Part shown: positions 22,925 to 38,226 of the stretch, piece after piece
Position numbering within the stretch: position 1 is the stretch's first letter
Layout: the number at the start of each line of letters is the position of its first letter
IMG/VR virus record: IMGVR_UViG_3300037156_000075
Span: 1 to 38,226 of that record
DNA: 38,226 nucleotides
Origin: a virus
Direction: 5' to 3' (one strand)
Notes under the pieces: generated by a model
Database searches by the model: none
What the model saw: the letters and a program-made list of their open reading frames with translations, nothing else
Told to the model about the DNA's origin: nothing
Made by a program: the position numbers and the translations under genes

Positions 22925-23356
22925 ATAGACTTAGTTCTTCAGCGCCATCAGTTTTTACCAACCGGAATTTTCGGCAGTCTTATTGCTGGTGAGAATGTGA
23001 TCGCGGTTACTCTCGAACATGGATATGATATCGGCGGCTTTTGGCTTCCGAAAGTCAGGGCCGGAATTTATAACTGCGTTCGCCATGCTCCGAATCGCCT
23101 TCCTTATGAAACCTTCATGCTCGAAAACGTACCAGATTTCCAAGGCGCGCCAGTTTCCGGCATTCTGATCCATAAGGCGAACTGGGAACGTGAGCTGGAG
23201 GGCTGCATCGCGGTCGGCCTCGCCGCGATCAATAACAATGAGATGATTACGGGCTCAAAGCTCGCCTTCGACAAAATGATGAGCCTTCAAGCCGCCGTGA
23301 ATTCGTTTAAGCTCACAATTGCGGAAGACGAATCAGGCGCGGCGCCGACTTCCTGA
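22925..23356 (+). CDS. DUF5675 protein (lysis-region candidate enzyme), no conventional start
   Basis: A DUF5675-type protein. From GTG at 22997 it has 119 residues, but conserved-looking sequence continues upstream in frame (LVLQRHQFLPTGIFGSLIAG), so the real start is before 22931. Upstream only ATA (22925) and ATT (22913) are available before an in-frame TAA; AGGGG lies eight bases before the ATT, and GGGGG before the ATA. I give the ATA form, 143 residues. Motifs: KVRAGIY (about 43-49) and ILIHKANWERELEGCIAVG (about 80-98), an H...GC arrangement reminiscent of L,D-transpeptidases. As no endolysin is visible, a cell-wall role is plausible; DUF5675 function is not established. The 3' end overlaps the minus-strand RHH gene by 24 bases. 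Confidence 0.65.
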   Translation: MDLVLQRHQFLPTGIFGSLIAGENVIAVTLEHGYDIGGFWLPKVRAGIYNCVRHAPNRLPYETFMLENVPDFQGAPVSGILIHKANWERELEGCIAVGLAAINNNEMITGSKLAFDKMMSLQAAVNSFKLTIAEDESGAAPTS

Positions 23357-23512
23357 TTTCGACATTCTTTCAATCATAAATCTAATCAGTTCAGAGATGT
23401 TGCCTCGCGAATGACGAAGGGCCAGCATCTCAAGCGTCTCGCGCTCCTCGGCTGTCAATCTTATAGTCAGTGAGCCGCTTCTTGTAATCTTTTCTATCTG
23501 CTTGTATTTCAT
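23333..23512 (-). CDS. Ribbon-helix-helix DNA-binding protein
   Basis: A 59-residue basic protein with an Arc/CopG-type ribbon-helix-helix pattern: strand SLTIRLT (residues 14-20), helix EERETLEMLALRHS (22-35), a turn with Gly-Asn, and helix ISELIRFMIERM (39-50), then a basic tail. Such proteins bind operators as dimers or tetramers and commonly repress. I place the start at ATG 23512; a TTG 12 codons earlier is possible. It faces the early operon starting at 23630, with a palindromic operator between them, so autoregulation and repression of the early genes is a reasonable inference. No strong ribosome site is visible. Confidence 0.65.
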   Translation of the reverse strand: MKYKQIEKITRSGSLTIRLTAEERETLEMLALRHSRGNISELIRFMIERMSKSGSRRRA

Positions 23513-23587
23513 AGCCAGCAATATACTCGATTTGGCACAGTCTCTCAACTGCTTAAAAAATGTCTTGCATTTTGTCGTGCGGCGCGC

Positions 23588-23617
23588 TAAACTGATTACA
23601 GTTCAGTTTAGTTAAAT
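23588..23617. promoter_or_regulatory. Palindromic operator upstream of the early operon
   Basis: Perfect inverted repeat TAAACTGA (23588-23595) and TCAGTTTA (23603-23610) around seven bases, with a nested AACTG-ATTA-CAGTT repeat at 23590-23603. It is followed by AGTTTAGTTAAAT (23605-23617), which recurs exactly at 34251-34263. A possible -35 TTGCAT and -10 TAAACT (17-base spacer) place the palindrome over the -10. Probable target of a phage repressor. Confidence 0.65.
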
Positions 23618-23629
23618 AGGAGACATCAG

Positions 23630-26717: not shown

Positions 26718-26723
26718 ATGAAA

Positions 26724-27902
26724 ATGAAATTCGTTCTCAATGACTCAAGAGTTCCGATAAAAGTTTGGTCTGACGAAAGTGACGTCGAACCCGAAGCGAT
26801 TCAACAACTGAAGAACACTGCGAACCTTCCTTTCGTTTTCAAACACGTTGCAGTCATGCCGGACGTTCATTTCGGCAAAGGTGCTACGGTCGGCTCGGTA
26901 GTCGCAGCTAAGAATGCAATTTGTCCGGCCTGTGTTGGTGTCGACATTGGTTGTGGAATGATGGCAGTCAAAACGAATCTTGATCACCGAATTGTCCAAG
27001 AAAAGATCAAAGAGATTCGTCATTCAATTGAGCGGTCTATCCCGGTCGGATTTGATCAAAATAATACTCTTAGCTTAACCGTTGAGTCATGGACTGGATT
27101 CAGTCATCCGGTTTTTGAATCTCAGAGCAAAAATCTTCGAAAGAAAGCTTCTTTGCAGCTTGGCTCTCTCGGTGGCGGAAATCACTTCATTGAAATTTGT
27201 CTAGATACCGAAAACAGTGTTTGGGTGATGCTGCATTCTGGTTCTCGCGGCATTGGGAATCTTTTAGCCCGCAAACATATCGATACGGCCAAGGGTTTGA
27301 TGAAAAAATTCTTTGTTGAACTGCCGGACCCGGATTTAGCTTATTTGCCGAGAGAGACCGTTGAGTTTGATGATTACATCAAGGACCTTCAGTGGTGCCA
27401 AGAATACGCGATGCAAAACCGTCATGAGATGATGGGTCGGGTTTTGAAGGATTTATCTTTCGCAATCTTTGGAGAAAACGGAAAGGTCACGACTTCAAAC
27501 GAAGTAAATTGTCATCATAACTACGTTGCATGGGAGAATCACTTTGGCGAAAACGTGATGGTCACTCGAAAGGGAGCCGTCCGCGCTCGAAGTGGAGACA
27601 TGGGAATCATTCCCGGCTCGATGGGAGCAAAATCTTTCATTGTGCGGGGGCTCGGAAATATTCAATCGTTTGATTCTTGTTCTCATGGAGCAGGGAGACG
27701 AATGTCGCGCAACCAAGCTCGCAAGACTTTCTCTCTTGATCAGCTTGCGGCGCAGACATCTGGTGTTGAATGTCGAAAAGATGAGGGCGTCCTTGACGAA
27801 ATTCCGGGTGCTTATAAAGACATAGCGACAGTAATGGAAAATCAAAGGGATTTGGTCGAGATTATTGCAGAGCTTAAACAAATAATGTGCATTAAGGGGT
27901 AG
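26724..27902 (+). CDS. rtcB: RNA ligase RtcB (3'-phosphate to 5'-OH)
   Basis: A 392-residue RtcB: GTP- and Mn-dependent ligase joining 2',3'-cyclic phosphate or 3'-phosphate ends to 5'-OH ends. The signature set is complete: GVDIGCGM (metal Cys about 77), GGGNHF (150-155), HSGSRG (171-176), NCHHNY (262-267), PGSMG (297-301) and SHGAGRRMSR (320-329), with the His of HGAGR (about 321) being the guanylylated residue. The start at 26724 is chosen because GAGGG is six bases upstream; the ATG at 26718 touches that site. In a phage it may repair tRNA cut by host anticodon nucleases; this role is inference. It follows the structured region and precedes the recombinase by ten bases. Confidence 0.92.
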   Translation: MKFVLNDSRVPIKVWSDESDVEPEAIQQLKNTANLPFVFKHVAVMPDVHFGKGATVGSVVAAKNAICPACVGVDIGCGMMAVKTNLDHRIVQEKIKEIRHSIERSIPVGFDQNNTLSLTVESWTGFSHPVFESQSKNLRKKASLQLGSLGGGNHFIEICLDTENSVWVMLHSGSRGIGNLLARKHIDTAKGLMKKFFVELPDPDLAYLPRETVEFDDYIKDLQWCQEYAMQNRHEMMGRVLKDLSFAIFGENGKVTTSNEVNCHHNYVAWENHFGENVMVTRKGAVRARSGDMGIIPGSMGAKSFIVRGLGNIQSFDSCSHGAGRRMSRNQARKTFSLDQLAAQTSGVECRKDEGVLDEIPGAYKDIATVMENQRDLVEIIAELKQIMCIKG

Positions 27903-29104: not shown

Positions 29105-29947
29105 ATGGACCAACAAGAATTGAGAAATGTTTTAGAGAAGCATCGGAAATGGGTTGTCGGCGAGCCGGATGGCGAGCGGGCGGACCTTCGCTCTGCGAAC
29201 CTTAGCTCTGCGGACCTTAGCTCTGCGAACCTTCGCTCTGCGGACCTTCGCTCTGCGGACCTTCGCTATGCGGACCTTAGCTCTGCGAACCTTCGCTCTG
29301 CGGACCTTAGCTATGCGGACCTTCGCTATGCGGACCTTCGCTCTGCGGACCTTCGCTATGCGGACCTTCGCTCTGCGAACCTTCGCTATGCGGACCTTCG
29401 CTCTGCGAACCTTCGCTATGCGGACCTTCGCTCTGCGAACCTTCGCTCTGCGAACCTTCGCTCTGCGAACCTTAGCTCTGCGAACCTTCGCTCTGCGGAC
29501 CTTCGCTATGCGGACCTTAGCTCTGCGAACCTTCGCTCTGCGGACCTTAGCTATGCGGACCTTCGCTATGCGGACCTTAGCTCTATCAAAGAGGATTTCT
29601 TCAAGCGGCTCACGCTGGCGAAAGCCGAGGTCATTGGGCTTCTAGATGCGCTGATGAAAGGCAAAATCGACGGCACGTCATATTCTGGCGACTGTGCATG
29701 TTTCGTCGGGACTATCGCGCGCGTTCGAAAAGAAGAATACGAGCATCTGACAAATGGACTAAAGCCGGAAGCTGATAGCCCGACTGAGCGTTGGTTCTTG
29801 GCGATCCGCGAAGGCGAAACTCCAGAGTCTAATTCGGTCGCGAAAGTGACGCGCGATTGGATCAAAGAGTTTGCGCTCAGTAATGAAATTATTTTGCCGG
29901 AATATAAATTGATTTCGAGTGTTGAGTTCCCAGCCGCGTTCGCGTGA
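29105..29947 (+). CDS. Pentapeptide-repeat protein with C-terminal domain
   Basis: A 280-residue protein: a 25-residue N-terminal helix, 27 consecutive pentapeptides of the form A(D/N)L(R/S)(S/Y) (about residues 26-160), then a 120-residue C-terminal domain with Cys (GDCACFVGTIA) and Trp. Pentapeptide repeats fold as a right-handed quadrilateral beta-helix; 27 units give nearly seven coils. Related Qnr and MfpA proteins mimic DNA and bind gyrase, so a DNA-mimic role in protecting phage DNA or inhibiting a host enzyme is possible but not shown. The start has taggagaag seven bases upstream. It is among the most repetitive proteins visible, with a DNA repeat beneath it (see repeat entry). Confidence 0.88.
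   Translation: MDQQELRNVLEKHRKWVVGEPDGERADLRSANLSSADLSSANLRSADLRSADLRYADLSSANLRSADLSYADLRYADLRSADLRYADLRSANLRYADLRSANLRYADLRSANLRSANLRSANLSSANLRSADLRYADLSSANLRSADLSYADLRYADLSSIKEDFFKRLTLAKAEVIGLLDALMKGKIDGTSYSGDCACFVGTIARVRKEEYEHLTNGLKPEADSPTERWFLAIREGETPESNSVAKVTRDWIKEFALSNEIILPEYKLISSVEFPAAFA
29180..29584 (+). repeat. 27 x 15-bp coding tandem repeat
   Basis: The array is 27 uninterrupted copies of GCG(G/A)ACCTT(C/A)GCT(C/A)T, 405 bases. Only three positions vary, each between two bases, and each change alters an amino acid (Asp/Asn, Arg/Ser, Ser/Tyr); no synonymous variant is present. A 75-base block of five units (units 6-10) recurs exactly as units 22-26. This points to recent expansion by slippage or recombination. 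Confidence 0.97.
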
Positions 29948-30601: not shown

Positions 30602-30787
30602 CTAGGTGTTTTTAAGTTTAATTTGGAATAATTCCCATTTAGCAGGCGGCATGTTGCGCTTGCCGTATTCCCAGTCCTGCCATGTGCGGAGAGGCGCGCC
30701 GATCAGCTCGCCAGCCTGGGATTGGGTGAGCTTCGCTTTGTCGCGGGTCTTGCGGATTATTTCAGGAGTGGGCTGCTTATTGGTCAT
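30602..30787 (-). CDS. Small XRE/Cro-type helix-turn-helix protein
   Basis: A 61-residue protein with a compact Cro/C1-like HTH: LTQSQAGELIGAPLRTWQDW (residues 20-39) followed by EYGKRNMPPAKWELF. The spacing and the Trp after the second helix match small phage and antitoxin HTH proteins. It would bind an operator as a dimer, probably the palindrome inside its own promoter at 31018. The start at 30787 overlaps the end of the upstream minus-strand gene by 11 bases, so the two are one operon. It may be a repressor or the antitoxin part of a two-gene unit; the data do not choose between these. Confidence 0.75.
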   Translation of the reverse strand: MTNKQPTPEIIRKTRDKAKLTQSQAGELIGAPLRTWQDWEYGKRNMPPAKWELFQIKLKNT

Positions 30788-30989
30788 CAGCGCCGTCCCA
30801 TTCAAAAGAGATGAACATTTGACTGTCTTCTTCGAAAGAGTCGACCGAGTAAAAGCGGTCACGAAGAAACTGTTCGAAGGGCTTAACTTCAGTTTTCAGA
30901 AGAGGAACGCTAACGAAAGAACCCTCTTCGATTTCCTCTTGGTTATAGTCTTTCATCGTTTCTTCAAAAATCTGTTCCGGTGTTCTCAT
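30777..30989 (-). CDS. Acidic protein paired with the HTH gene
   Basis: A 70-residue, strongly acidic protein, first gene of a minus-strand operon. The start at 30989 has AAGGAGA seven bases upstream. It begins with a helix (PEQIFEETMKDYNQEEIEEG), then strands and a short helix KPFEQFLRDRF, and ends DGADDQ. No toxin or antitoxin family is recognised. The order (acidic small protein then HTH protein) resembles both toxin-antitoxin pairs and immunity modules. It lies opposite to the surrounding genes and has its own promoter, consistent with expression in a different phase from the early operon. Confidence 0.65.
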   Translation of the reverse strand: MRTPEQIFEETMKDYNQEEIEEGSFVSVPLLKTEVKPFEQFLRDRFYSVDSFEEDSQMFISFEWDGADDQ

Positions 30990-31011
30990 TTTCGTCTCCT
31001 TGTTGAATACA

Positions 31012-31039
31012 GTATTACACGCATTGCGTGCATTCGCAA
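31012..31039 (-). promoter_or_regulatory. Promoter with palindrome in the spacer for the HTH operon
   Basis: On the minus strand TTGCGA (31039-31034) and TAATAC (31017-31012) are separated by 16 bases. The spacer contains the perfect palindrome CACGCA-T-TGCGTG (31018-31030). This placement is typical of an autorepressed promoter, with the HTH protein at 30602 as the natural candidate. Confidence 0.55.
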
Positions 31040-31109
31040 GGGGAAAAATGAGATATTTATAACTAGCGGAAAGTACTGGCAATTGATCATTGAAGACAAG
31101 TGAGGGAAA

Positions 31110-33389: not shown

Positions 33390-33688
33390 TCAAAGGAATG
33401 GCTCAGCGCCGAATAGATCGGAACGCCTGGGAAATCGCAATTTACGACGATCAGCGCAAGCTTTCATACACCATGGAATTCAAAGTCCATGAAGCGAAAG
33501 ACGACTACTCTTTTGAAACCAGTATGTTCTCTCTTCATAGCGATCAAATTGACATGCTTAAAGCCTTTGCTTCGGCGCTTCAGCAAATGGAAATTATGCC
33601 AGAGAGTGCGACGACTGCCGAACTGAAGGCGACAAAAGCCCATTTGGAAGATATGCGCACGCTCGTATTGAAACGACCGCTTGCTTGA
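33386..33688 (+). CDS. Hypothetical protein
   Basis: A 100-residue protein with a GTG start at 33386 overlapping the preceding stop; an ATG four codons later (33398, after aaagga) may be the true start. It has strands in the first half (AWEIAIYDDQRKLSYTMEF) and helices later (SDQIDMLKAFASALQQMEI). The layout suggests a small alpha/beta protein. No known domain. It sits near the end of the accessory string. Confidence 0.58.
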   Translation: MIKGMAQRRIDRNAWEIAIYDDQRKLSYTMEFKVHEAKDDYSFETSMFSLHSDQIDMLKAFASALQQMEIMPESATTAELKATKAHLEDMRTLVLKRPLA

Positions 33689-33705
33689 ATAGCCACGGAG
33701 GCGTG

Positions 33706-33957
33706 ATGGATTGTTGCGGGCAAAACAAAATGAGCGTTGAGGAATTCTTGGTTCAGATATCTGCCTATGCCGATCGCGAAGGAATCAAAATTCTCGCGAT
33801 CACAATTGATTCACATTCTCATAATGAGTTCATGATGGGTCTTTGGGGGAAGATGGTCGGCGGCGGACGGCCACCACCTCCAGATTCAACAATTACATTG
33901 AACACGAGCGTCGGAGAAATCGCAGTTAGAGGTCCGACAAATCCGAAGGGTAAATAG
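33706..33957 (+). CDS. Last gene of the accessory string, hypothetical
   Basis: An 83-residue protein. I choose ATG 33706, with GGAGG four bases before it, over a TTG at 33685. The product starts MDCCGQNKMSVEEF, has a helix-strand unit (YADREGIKILAITIDSHSH), a Gly/Pro-rich loop (GGGRPPPPDS) and a final strand pair. The CC and HSH could bind metal. It converges on the minus-strand sigma4 gene. Function unknown. Confidence 0.55.
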   Translation: MDCCGQNKMSVEEFLVQISAYADREGIKILAITIDSHSHNEFMMGLWGKMVGGGRPPPPDSTITLNTSVGEIAVRGPTNPKGK

Positions 33958-33968
33958 CGCCACGTGTC

Positions 33969-34000
33969 CACTTACGACAAGTGCCGTTTCATTTTGAAAC
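33969..34000. terminator. Weak hairpin pair between convergent genes
   Basis: CACTT-acgac-AAGTG (33969-33983) and GTTTC-atttt-GAAAC (33986-34000) lie between the last accessory gene and the converging sigma4 gene. Stems are 5 bp and lack a strong T-run, so this is only a possible bidirectional terminator. Confidence 0.3.
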
Positions 34001-34224
34001 TAAAGAGCGTGAGAAAGAATGTGGCCGATCGCATCTGCATAAATCGTCCAAACTTGTGACTCTGAAATCCTGAGCACGATCGCAATTTCCGCGAAACTCA
34101 AATCATCCATGTAATAGAGAGAAATAACCAACCCCTCCCGATGAGAGAGGCTTTTGACTCTGGTGATGAGATCAAGTCGCGACAATTTCGCGCCAGCTCC
34201 CCTTGTCATCAAATCATGCTCCAT
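34000..34224 (-). CDS. Free-standing FliA (sigma28)-like region 4 protein
   Basis: A 74-residue protein consisting almost only of sigma factor region 4. The stretch SLSHREGLVISLYYMDDLSF (about 25-44) and then AEIAIVLRISESQVWTIYADAI (45-66; helix-turn-helix) follows FliA region 4 closely (pattern L-RE-LV-LYY-L-EI-VL-ES-V-AI). Regions 1-3 are absent, so it cannot act as a complete sigma. It could bind a -35-like site and the polymerase beta flap as an activator or appropriator. ATG 34224 has no ribosome site; ATG 34209 has GGAG nine bases upstream and may be the true start. It is divergent from the HTH gene at 34293, which has a sigma28-type promoter. Confidence 0.78.
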   Translation of the reverse strand: MEHDLMTRGAGAKLSRLDLITRVKSLSHREGLVISLYYMDDLSFAEIAIVLRISESQVWTIYADAIGHILSHAL

Positions 34225-34232
34225 AGTGAGAT

Positions 34233-34263
34233 TTTAACTAAAATAGGTCTAGTTTAGTTAAAT
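34233..34263. promoter_or_regulatory. Operator between the divergent regulatory genes
   Basis: Perfect 10-bp inverted repeat TTTAACTAAA (34233-34242) and TTTAGTTAAA (34253-34262), ten-base spacer. The right arm lies within AGTTTAGTTAAAT (34251-34263), identical to 23605-23617 before the early operon. It overlaps the -35 of the rightward promoter and a TAAAAT -10-like sequence of the leftward gene. Confidence 0.7.
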
Positions 34264-34285
34264 TAATTTAATCCCTCGCCGATAA
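34259..34285 (+). promoter_or_regulatory. sigma28 (FliA)-type promoter
   Basis: TAAATTAA (34259-34266), 11 bases, then GCCGATAA (34278-34285). The -10 equals the enterobacterial FliA consensus and the spacing to TAAA is exact. Transcription would start at about 34291-34293, at or next to the ATG of the downstream gene, so the mRNA would be nearly leaderless; indeed no ribosome site is visible there. Confidence 0.6.
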
Positions 34286-34292
34286 CTGGGCC

Positions 34293-34706
34293 ATGAGCGA
34301 CAAAGATGCCTGCAAAATTCTTCGGCGCGAACAGGCCGAATGGCGAAAGAAACTTATCGATAGCGGATTCAGCGATCACGAAGACGATCACGGCAACCTC
34401 TCTCAACCTGACCTTCGGACAAATAGCTTCGAATGCAGGGACAAGGTCTTAGACTTCTTCCTCTTTCTTGATCATCTCCTTACTCACTATAAAGAAATGC
34501 CCGCCTTCGAGCGCAAGGTTCTGACCCTTTATGCGAGCGGAGAATTCATTACCGATATTTACCGCAAACTTAAATGCTCCGAAAAATCCGCCAGAATGGT
34601 CGTAAAGCGCTACAAGGGCCTGATCAAGGGCATCCATAGCCTTCTCGACAACGAGAATCATCTCGACGAGCAGCAATCCAGAAAAACAATGTCGGCTTGT
34701 GGGTAA
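34293..34706 (+). CDS. Helix-turn-helix regulator (sigma4/late-activator-like)
   Basis: A 137-residue protein. The first 60 residues are charged and polar; residues about 69-112 (MPAFERKVLTLYASGEFITD, then IYRKLKCSEKSARMVVKRY) form a sigma region 4-like or LuxR-like HTH, as in phage late-gene activators. The tail is acidic and His/Gln-rich. It has no clear Shine-Dalgarno and begins at the predicted start of transcription. Located just before the late packaging unit, it is a plausible activator of late element copies at 35096, 5522 and 19001; this is inference. It overlaps the next gene by eight bases. Confidence 0.65.
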   Translation: MSDKDACKILRREQAEWRKKLIDSGFSDHEDDHGNLSQPDLRTNSFECRDKVLDFFLFLDHLLTHYKEMPAFERKVLTLYASGEFITDIYRKLKCSEKSARMVVKRYKGLIKGIHSLLDNENHLDEQQSRKTMSACG

Positions 34707-35094
34707 GTTTCTTTCTTCCCTCGAGGCGGAACAAATTCAAGACGACGACTCAACCGATGAGGGCCGCGGAACCTGGCGCCTTCTTGCCCCCCTAATTTAT
34801 CTCGCGGATTCCGGCGTGACCTATTCCGCGCCGGCCGGGTTCGTTACCGATTTCGCGAGCATTCCGCGCATTCCGATCGTTTTTGATATTTTCGGCGACC
34901 GGGCCAATCTCGCGGCGTCTCTCCATGACTGGCTTTACACCGCCGACCCCATCACAAAGCTTCATCCATGCCCAGATCGCCTAACTGCCGACCAGCTTCT
35001 ACGCGAGGCATGCCTGGCCCAAGGTGTTGGCAAATTCATCGCCTACGTTCTTTACCTGGGCGTTCGGCTGGGCGGCGCGAGCCACTGGGCCTAG
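34699..35094 (+). CDS. DUF1353 family protein
   Basis: A 131-residue protein of the DUF1353 type found in many phages. The family pattern is visible: TYSAPAGFVTDFASIPRIP (about residues 40-58), LAASLHDWLYT (about 73-83) and a C-terminal ADQLLREACLAQGVGKF with the end LYLGVRLGGASHW. The HDWLY and DFAS motifs are the family hallmark; a molecular function is not established, though an association with lysis or packaging regions is frequent. The start is GTG 34699, eight bases inside the previous gene. Its TAG ends one base before late element 3. Confidence 0.75.
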   Translation: MGKFLSSLEAEQIQDDDSTDEGRGTWRLLAPLIYLADSGVTYSAPAGFVTDFASIPRIPIVFDIFGDRANLAASLHDWLYTADPITKLHPCPDRLTADQLLREACLAQGVGKFIAYVLYLGVRLGGASHWA

Positions 35095-36828: not shown

Positions 36829-38226
36829 ATGACAGAGCTCCACATCTCTCTTCAGCCAAAGCAAAAGCAGTTTCTCAAGTCAGTTGAGAGCACGCCGATT
36901 ACGTTTTTCGGTGGCGCGAAAGGCGGCGGGAAATCCAAGGGCGTGAGGCTTATCCTGCTTCTTCGCAGGCTTCGTTATCCGGGAACTCATGCCGCGCTCT
37001 TTCGCCGCACCTACAAAGAACTCGAGGGCAATCACATCCGGCCCCTGTTTGAAGAATTCCCAATGCTTAAGGCATATTGGAACGATTCCAAAAAGCTTTT
37101 GTCTTTACCCAATGGCTCCTCAATCGAATTCTGCCACTGCGAAAACGCCAAAGACGTCGAGCGGTACCAGGGCCGAGAATATGACGACCTTGCAATCGAA
37201 GAGGCCGGTCAATGGCTCGAGAAAATGTTTCGAACACTTCTGGGCTCAAACCGCTCGAGCAAAGCCGGAATCAAACCGCGGTGCCTGCTCACGGGGAACC
37301 CGGGCGGCGTTGGCCACACATGGCTTAAGCGTCTCTTTATCGAACGAAGATTCACAGAGCGCGAGCGCCCAGAGGACCATGCGTTCATCAAGGCGCTCGT
37401 GGACGACAACCCAGCGCTCCTCGAAAACGATCCTGATTATGTTCACAGATTAAATTCTGAACCAAACGAAGCGTTACGAAAGGCCTATCGATATGGTGAT
37501 TGGGACATCTTTGCGGGCCAATTCTTTGGTGAGATTCGGCGCGAGGTTCACTTCATTGAGCCTTTTCCCATTCCTCGTCATTGGCCCCGTTTCGGCTCAT
37601 ACGATTTTGGATTTAACCATCCCGCAGCTTTTGGCTGGTTCACCAACGATGAGGACGGAAACGTTTTCCTTTATCGGGAGTTTATCAAGGCGGGGCTACG
37701 GGTTGATCAATTTTCCAAACACGTTAACCAATTCGAAGACACCAAGCTCCTCAATCCTGTTGTTGCAGGATGGGACGCATGGGCCCAAAAGAATGTAATT
37801 TCGTCGCACGATAAGGGCTCAAGCCCAACGGTCGCGGAAGAATTCGCAGCACATGAAATTCAACTCTCACGCGCGGAGATCGATCGCATTCAAGGCGCGC
37901 AGCAAGTTCGAAACTATCTCGCGTGGCAGAAGACCACGCCAGAGGGCAAAGACGGCCGGCCGAGATTCTATATTTTCAACACATGCCCAATTACTTTCGA
38001 TGCGCTCACGAGAATGCAGCACGACCCGGACCGCTTAGAAGATGTTTTGAAAGTTGATTCATCTGACGGCGATCCTCTCTCGGGCGATGACGCCTACGAT
38101 ATGTGCCGCTACGCCCTCATGAGCCGCCCAATGATCGCCCAAGCTCCGAAGGTGCGAAATCCCTATGGCTCTTCAGCGTGGGCCGCACAGCAAACTAAGC
38201 AAATGGAAGAGTCAATCGATCACCAA
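36829..38226 (+). CDS. terL: Terminase large subunit TerL, 5' part
   Basis: The first 466 codons of TerL, running off the right edge; the missing end is at 1-929. Walker A GGAKGGGKS (residues 28-36) and Walker B DDLAIEEAG (119-127, with the catalytic Glu) are clear, with the coupling motif TGNPGG (about 155-160). The RNase H-like nuclease starts with GSYDFGFNHP (Asp about 259). TerL is the ATPase that drives DNA into the procapsid and cuts it. ATG follows the preceding TAA with no gap. In the redundant part this copy differs from the copy at 1-815 mostly at synonymous positions. Confidence 0.95.
   Translation, partial: MTELHISLQPKQKQFLKSVESTPITFFGGAKGGGKSKGVRLILLLRRLRYPGTHAALFRRTYKELEGNHIRPLFEEFPMLKAYWNDSKKLLSLPNGSSIEFCHCENAKDVERYQGREYDDLAIEEAGQWLEKMFRTLLGSNRSSKAGIKPRCLLTGNPGGVGHTWLKRLFIERRFTERERPEDHAFIKALVDDNPALLENDPDYVHRLNSEPNEALRKAYRYGDWDIFAGQFFGEIRREVHFIEPFPIPRHWPRFGSYDFGFNHPAAFGWFTNDEDGNVFLYREFIKAGLRVDQFSKHVNQFEDTKLLNPVVAGWDAWAQKNVISSHDKGSSPTVAEEFAAHEIQLSRAEIDRIQGAQQVRNYLAWQKTTPEGKDGRPRFYIFNTCPITFDALTRMQHDPDRLEDVLKVDSSDGDPLSGDDAYDMCRYALMSRPMIAQAPKVRNPYGSSAWAAQQTKQMEESIDHQ
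37412..38226 (+). repeat. Divergent terminal redundancy (wraps to 1-815)
   Basis: Bases 37412-38226 correspond to 1-815 at an offset of 37411 with no gaps and about 27 mismatches by eye (about 3.3 percent). Nearly all changes are synonymous in terL; the exceptions I see are one Ala/Ser and one Gln/Lys. This marks a circular or circularly permuted genome assembled from at least two related variants. Confidence 0.93.

Follow-up and report, generated by a model that had tools for sequence, protein, structure and literature searches.

A viral contig from IMG/VR (38,226 bp, analysed over its whole length and hereafter called the window) encodes a small protein that consists of little besides region 4 of a FliA/WhiG-type (sigma28) sigma factor. 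We read this protein as a regulator, not a sigma factor in its own right, that would act at the gate of the late (packaging) operon (probability roughly 0.4). This putative gate comprises the lone sigma28 region 4, a divergent gene for a candidate late activator, the sigma28-type promoter facing that gene and a palindrome lying over the −35 element of the promoter (Table 1).

Table 1. Features of the window that bear on the region 4 gene and its divergent neighbour.
Feature	Position	Strand	Remarks
Stand-alone FliA/WhiG-type sigma region 4 gene	34000..34209	−	69 aa; the 74-aa reading starts at 34224
Palindrome TTTAACTAAAATAG-GT-CTAGTTTAGTTAAA, candidate operator between divergent genes	34233..34262		13/14 pairs
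Predicted sigma28-type promoter TAAA-N15-GCCGATAA	34259..34285	+	12/12 to the flagellar consensus
137-aa HTH protein (the neighbour), candidate late-gene activator	34293..34706	+	Conserved in related phages upstream of packaging genes
Large terminase	36829..38226	+	tblastn to annotated terminases; downstream end of the presumed operon from 34293
Second half-site copy AGTTTAGTTAAAT	23604..23616	+	In the other divergent intergenic region, 23549–23629

The ORF listing of the window contains an open frame of 74 aa at 34000–34224(−), and this frame, to which the initial annotation had pointed, is a real small gene. It is the sole stop-free frame across its stretch, and its codon-usage score (+0.22 bits per codon, compared with 0.16 to 0.38 for real small genes of the same phage) is above that of every one of 16 tested shadow ORFs, whose highest score was 0.21. 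Because a GGAG lies nine bases 5′ of the ATG at 34209, that codon is the likelier start, which would give a protein of 69 rather than 74 aa.

Sequence profiles assign the product to the sigma factors. Its top NCBIfam family is FliA_WhiG (TIGR02479, 4.1e-11), with residues 18–69 aligned to positions 168–219 of 224 in the model, that is, to the extreme C-terminal region 4, and the protein stops about five residues past this match; its score of 43 bits, against a cutoff of 189.6, falls short of a full-length family member. The initial annotation had proposed a search against sigma70 region 4 families, in which a better match to LuxR would speak against its assignment. In this search Pfam Sigma70_r4 (PF04545) matched at 9.9e-8 (31.8 bits, above the curated cutoff of 24.1) and GerE/LuxR at an E-value of 0.077, below its cutoff, and a LuxR or unrelated HTH identity is thereby ruled out. 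Among solved structures the closest proteins are FliA and WhiG, the top PDB match being FliA (6pmi, 1.4e-5). AlphaFold, given a shallow alignment, predicted the four-helix arrangement of region 4 (pLDDT 82), and numerous sigma region 4 domains rank among the top Foldseek matches of this model at a probability of 1.00. The model also matches the region 4 portion of the sigma28–FlgM complexes 1rp3 and 9wsf; the Foldseek E-values are modest (best 2.6e-3, none <1e-3) because the domain is short. By profile match and predicted fold, the product is therefore a FliA/WhiG-type sigma region 4 in both family and architecture, and the earlier description of a 74-residue product with little besides this domain is borne out by Pfam, NCBIfam and the model alike.

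This domain stands alone. Profile searches found no match to sigma region 2 (Sigma70_r2, PF04542; E-values up to 10) or region 3 (Sigma70_r3) in the ORF or anywhere in the window, and the FliA_WhiG profile matches one place in the window only, the region 4 ORF. The domains that bind the −10 element and core polymerase are thus absent from the ORF, as originally proposed, and from the window as a whole. Since the 38-kb phage lacks regions 2 and 3, the protein is not half of a split sigma factor, and an arrangement of the SigO/RsoA type, with region 2 on a separate gene of the same genome, was rejected within the reach of the region 2 profile; a more divergent partner, or one supplied by the host, would escape this search. 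Viral contigs were profile-scanned twice for FliA-like region 4, and in the loci returned the domain always lay within a longer sigma protein: 241–291 aa in L060 and L078–L087 (three of these loci, L084–L086, encode one identical protein), 183 aa in L061 and 125 aa in L059 (= L076), which is near a contig end. The tblastn matches in fecal phages were to full-length FliA/SigD-like sigmas (H4, H5 and H7) and to an ECF-like sigma (H1), none of them stand-alone. Scanning viral contigs and 84,980 species genomes directly with the region 4 protein returned no relatives, by a method that depends on short exact peptide matches and overlooks distant homologues. No homologue of its gene was found in related phages, which were retrieved with the large terminase as query; the weak PF04545 matches in these phages fell in XRE-type genes (G018 and G024) and in a homologue of the neighbour (G005) and were all below the cutoff.

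This orphan status, with no homologue in related phages, would fit a functionless remnant: a sigma gene may have decayed and left its 3′ end, in which the frame stays open by chance. Such a remnant is improbable, however: the domain is intact and comes with a start, a ribosome-binding site and a stop, the codon usage is like that of real genes, and regulatory DNA lies in front of the gene. As for ancestry, the initial annotation had inferred an origin from the host flagellar sigma. This is a possible source but not a preferred one, because other viral contigs also carry full-length genes for FliA/WhiG-like sigmas, and descent from a phage sigma is equally likely. The full-length sigmas (L060, L078–L083 and L084–L086; 241–291 aa) form a phage sigma gene group that merits its own study.

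The protein resembles FliA (6pmi, 1rp3, 9wsf) and WhiG (6pfj) in domain sequence, with FliA_WhiG as its best NCBIfam family, and in fold, but differs from them in having region 4 only and in the part that reads DNA. The core LYY..L..EI..VL..ES is retained, and the stretch with which FliA reads the −35 element, ESRVSQ, is replaced by ESQVWT (SRVSQ to SQVWT), at what we take to be the base-contact positions of sigma70 (R584, E585 and R588). The last helix has lost its basic tail and is now hydrophobic, so that in place of the SRVSQ and basic last helix of TIGR02479 the protein has SQVWT and a charge of −2.0. The full-length sigmas of viral contigs (L060 and L078–L087) belong to the same domain family but, besides being longer, keep an intact SR[VI][SC]Q recognition motif. 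Recognition-helix charge is −2.0 to −2.4 in the region 4 protein versus +1.5 to +4.0 in sigmas of viral and fecal contigs, and −2.0 versus +2.9 to +3.9 in three solved FliA/WhiG proteins, a comparison of few sequences in which charge stands in only crudely for DNA binding. Because basic and base-reading residues are lost, ordinary −35 reading is disfavoured, with charge as a rough guide, and the sequence suggests that the protein more likely works by protein–protein contact than by reading a −35 element.

The region 4 gene and its divergent neighbour are separated by a 68-bp gap, which carries TAAATTAATTTAATCCCTCGCCGATAA, a perfect match to TAAA-N15-GCCGATAA, the consensus in use for FliA and WhiG promoters (PMC2859248, PMC8325347). 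This is the single perfect instance in the window, where 0.04 are expected (three spacings, both strands), and 339 kb of sequence from related phages has no such site. The chance of a perfect consensus in a gap of such composition is 2e-4, a figure that is no blind test, as the motif was noticed during reading of the gap and the hypothesis came from the region 4 finding. In the E. coli form, TAAAGTTT-N11-GCCGATAA, the −35 octamer TAAAGTTT is matched at five of eight positions. A terminase search of genomes for a host gave distant MAG matches only (42% and 34%). A consensus scan found no sigma70-type promoter in 33600–34800. A transcript initiated at the sigma28-type site would begin at ~34291–34293, at the start codon of the neighbour, and would thus be leaderless.

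The same gap holds the palindrome, the sole inverted repeat in the window with at least 13/14 pairs and a gap of up to 12, which was reached by 0 of 3,000 gap shuffles. Its right arm ends in the TAAA of the promoter, so that it overlaps the −35 element, and its half-site centres are 20 bp apart, on the same DNA face. A 13-mer is common to the arm region and to the second half-site copy in the other divergent intergenic region (reached by 2 of 1,000 shuffles). That gap is faced by a second small divergent gene, 23333–23548(−), whose product is ribbon-helix-helix-like by eye; it has no Pfam match and a codon score near zero, and no close relatives were found. The same palindrome also occurs in viral contig L064, but this contig is from an unrelated, AT-rich phage and the occurrence was attributed to chance.

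A small divergent gene next to a unique palindrome overlapping a −35 element raises the alternative of a DNA-binding switch, in which region 4 would dimerise through its hydrophobic last helix, bind the palindrome and repress both divergent promoters, with the −35 of the sigma28-type promoter occluded until induction. The repetition of the half-site in the other divergent gap and the placement of both centres on one face are consistent with such binding, and an integrase (PF00589) in the window suggests a temperate phage. We nevertheless consider this switch somewhat unlikely: the recognition helix that would have to bind no longer carries the residues that make it basic and base-reading in FliA, dimerisation is putative, and the neighbour or the 23333–23548(−) protein could instead be what binds the palindrome.

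Homologues of the neighbour, 33–46% identical, are encoded by six related phages (L002, L003, L006, L008, L010 and L070); they are 117–137 aa long with a pI of 9.4–10.7 (five measured) and are followed by a 35161-type gene and then, where the contig reaches far enough, by packaging genes. In the three relatives inspected (L002, L003 and L006), no divergent region 4 gene lies upstream of the homologue, and the region 4 gene and its gap therefore seem to have been added in this phage. The C-terminal half of the neighbour resembles sigma region 4 (hhalign 91.5%, E = 8.5e-7), a tentative match from small alignments, and a single-sequence structure model (pLDDT 64.5) gave no usable fold matches. 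Position, size and charge can be compared with those of the RinA/Ltr late regulators of staphylococcal phages (PMC13123087): the neighbour is likewise ~130 aa, has an HTH and basic homologues, and lies directly upstream of packaging genes, but none of the named late-activator families matches its sequence convincingly. We infer that the genes from 34293 through the large terminase form one late operon, with the product of the neighbour as its activator.

The terminase gene crosses the join of the contig ends, which overlap (1–815 and 37412–38226) with 788 identical bases over 815 bp; the genome is terminally repeated or circular and was assembled with strain variation. Elsewhere in the window, a phage-encoded RtcB RNA ligase (26718–27902(+), 8e-127) lies near RecT, a YqaJ exonuclease and a phage integrase. 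The translated ORF at 29105–29947(+) contains many tandem ADLRSANL-type units and is pentapeptide-repeat-like, and 30602–30862(−), which overlaps an unassigned ORF at 30777–31082(−), encodes an HTH protein like the MqsA antitoxin (8.4e-5, below the cutoff).

In sigma factors, the core that the region 4 protein retains is the part that meets the beta-flap tip of RNA polymerase, and the basic DNA-reading face is gone. Most probably, the protein would take the position of FliA region 4 by docking on the flap (or on sigma28 partners), and firing of the sigma28-type promoter would then depend on its level; flap docking and the direction of its effect are presumptive, as is the late-activator role of the neighbour. 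A phage precedent for this possible mode is T4 gp33, a flap-binding coactivator that does not bind DNA by itself and that represses alone and activates with a partner (PMC7892883). By analogy, the small protein described here may take up the position that sigma region 4 normally fills, its flap binding being putative; gp33, however, is structurally unrelated to region 4 (PMC7892883), whereas the present protein is a genuine region 4 homologue.

Free region 4 might alternatively serve as a decoy that mimics FliA region 4 and titrates host FlgM, so that FliA is freed for the sigma28-type promoter of the phage. The FliA-specific type of the domain, the perfect promoter adjoining its gene and the predicted fold, which matches the region 4 part of the sigma28–FlgM complexes, all point this way, but FlgM contacts its sigma factor at multiple regions (PMC3861889) and a lone region 4 may bind it too weakly, which leaves the decoy with a low probability. 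An FlgM-like gene was not found in the window, which has no bearing on the host.

The regulator at the late operon is thus favoured by its family and fold, the lack of regions 2 and 3, the altered helix, the adjacent promoter, the RinA/Ltr-like neighbour and the gp33 precedent. Against it, the protein is an orphan, so that selection on its flap surface is unmeasurable, and the palindrome suggests a DNA-bound regulator instead; between docking on host RNA polymerase and a palindrome-binding repressor, docking is slightly favoured.

Phages are known to encode full-length sigma factors and unrelated flap binders, and in a limited open-access set of the literature we found no description of a FliA-type region 4 that stands alone and whose gene faces a consensus flagellar promoter. 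A more speculative and rather unlikely extension is that the stand-alone sigma28 region 4 module ties firing of the late operon to the host flagellar sigma, either because it swaps places with FliA region 4 on the polymerase or because it sequesters FlgM, and that the phage thereby reads or commandeers the motility state of its host. If real, the module would allow host transcription to be redirected by very small means and would tie host motility control directly, and in a testable way, to late expression of the phage.
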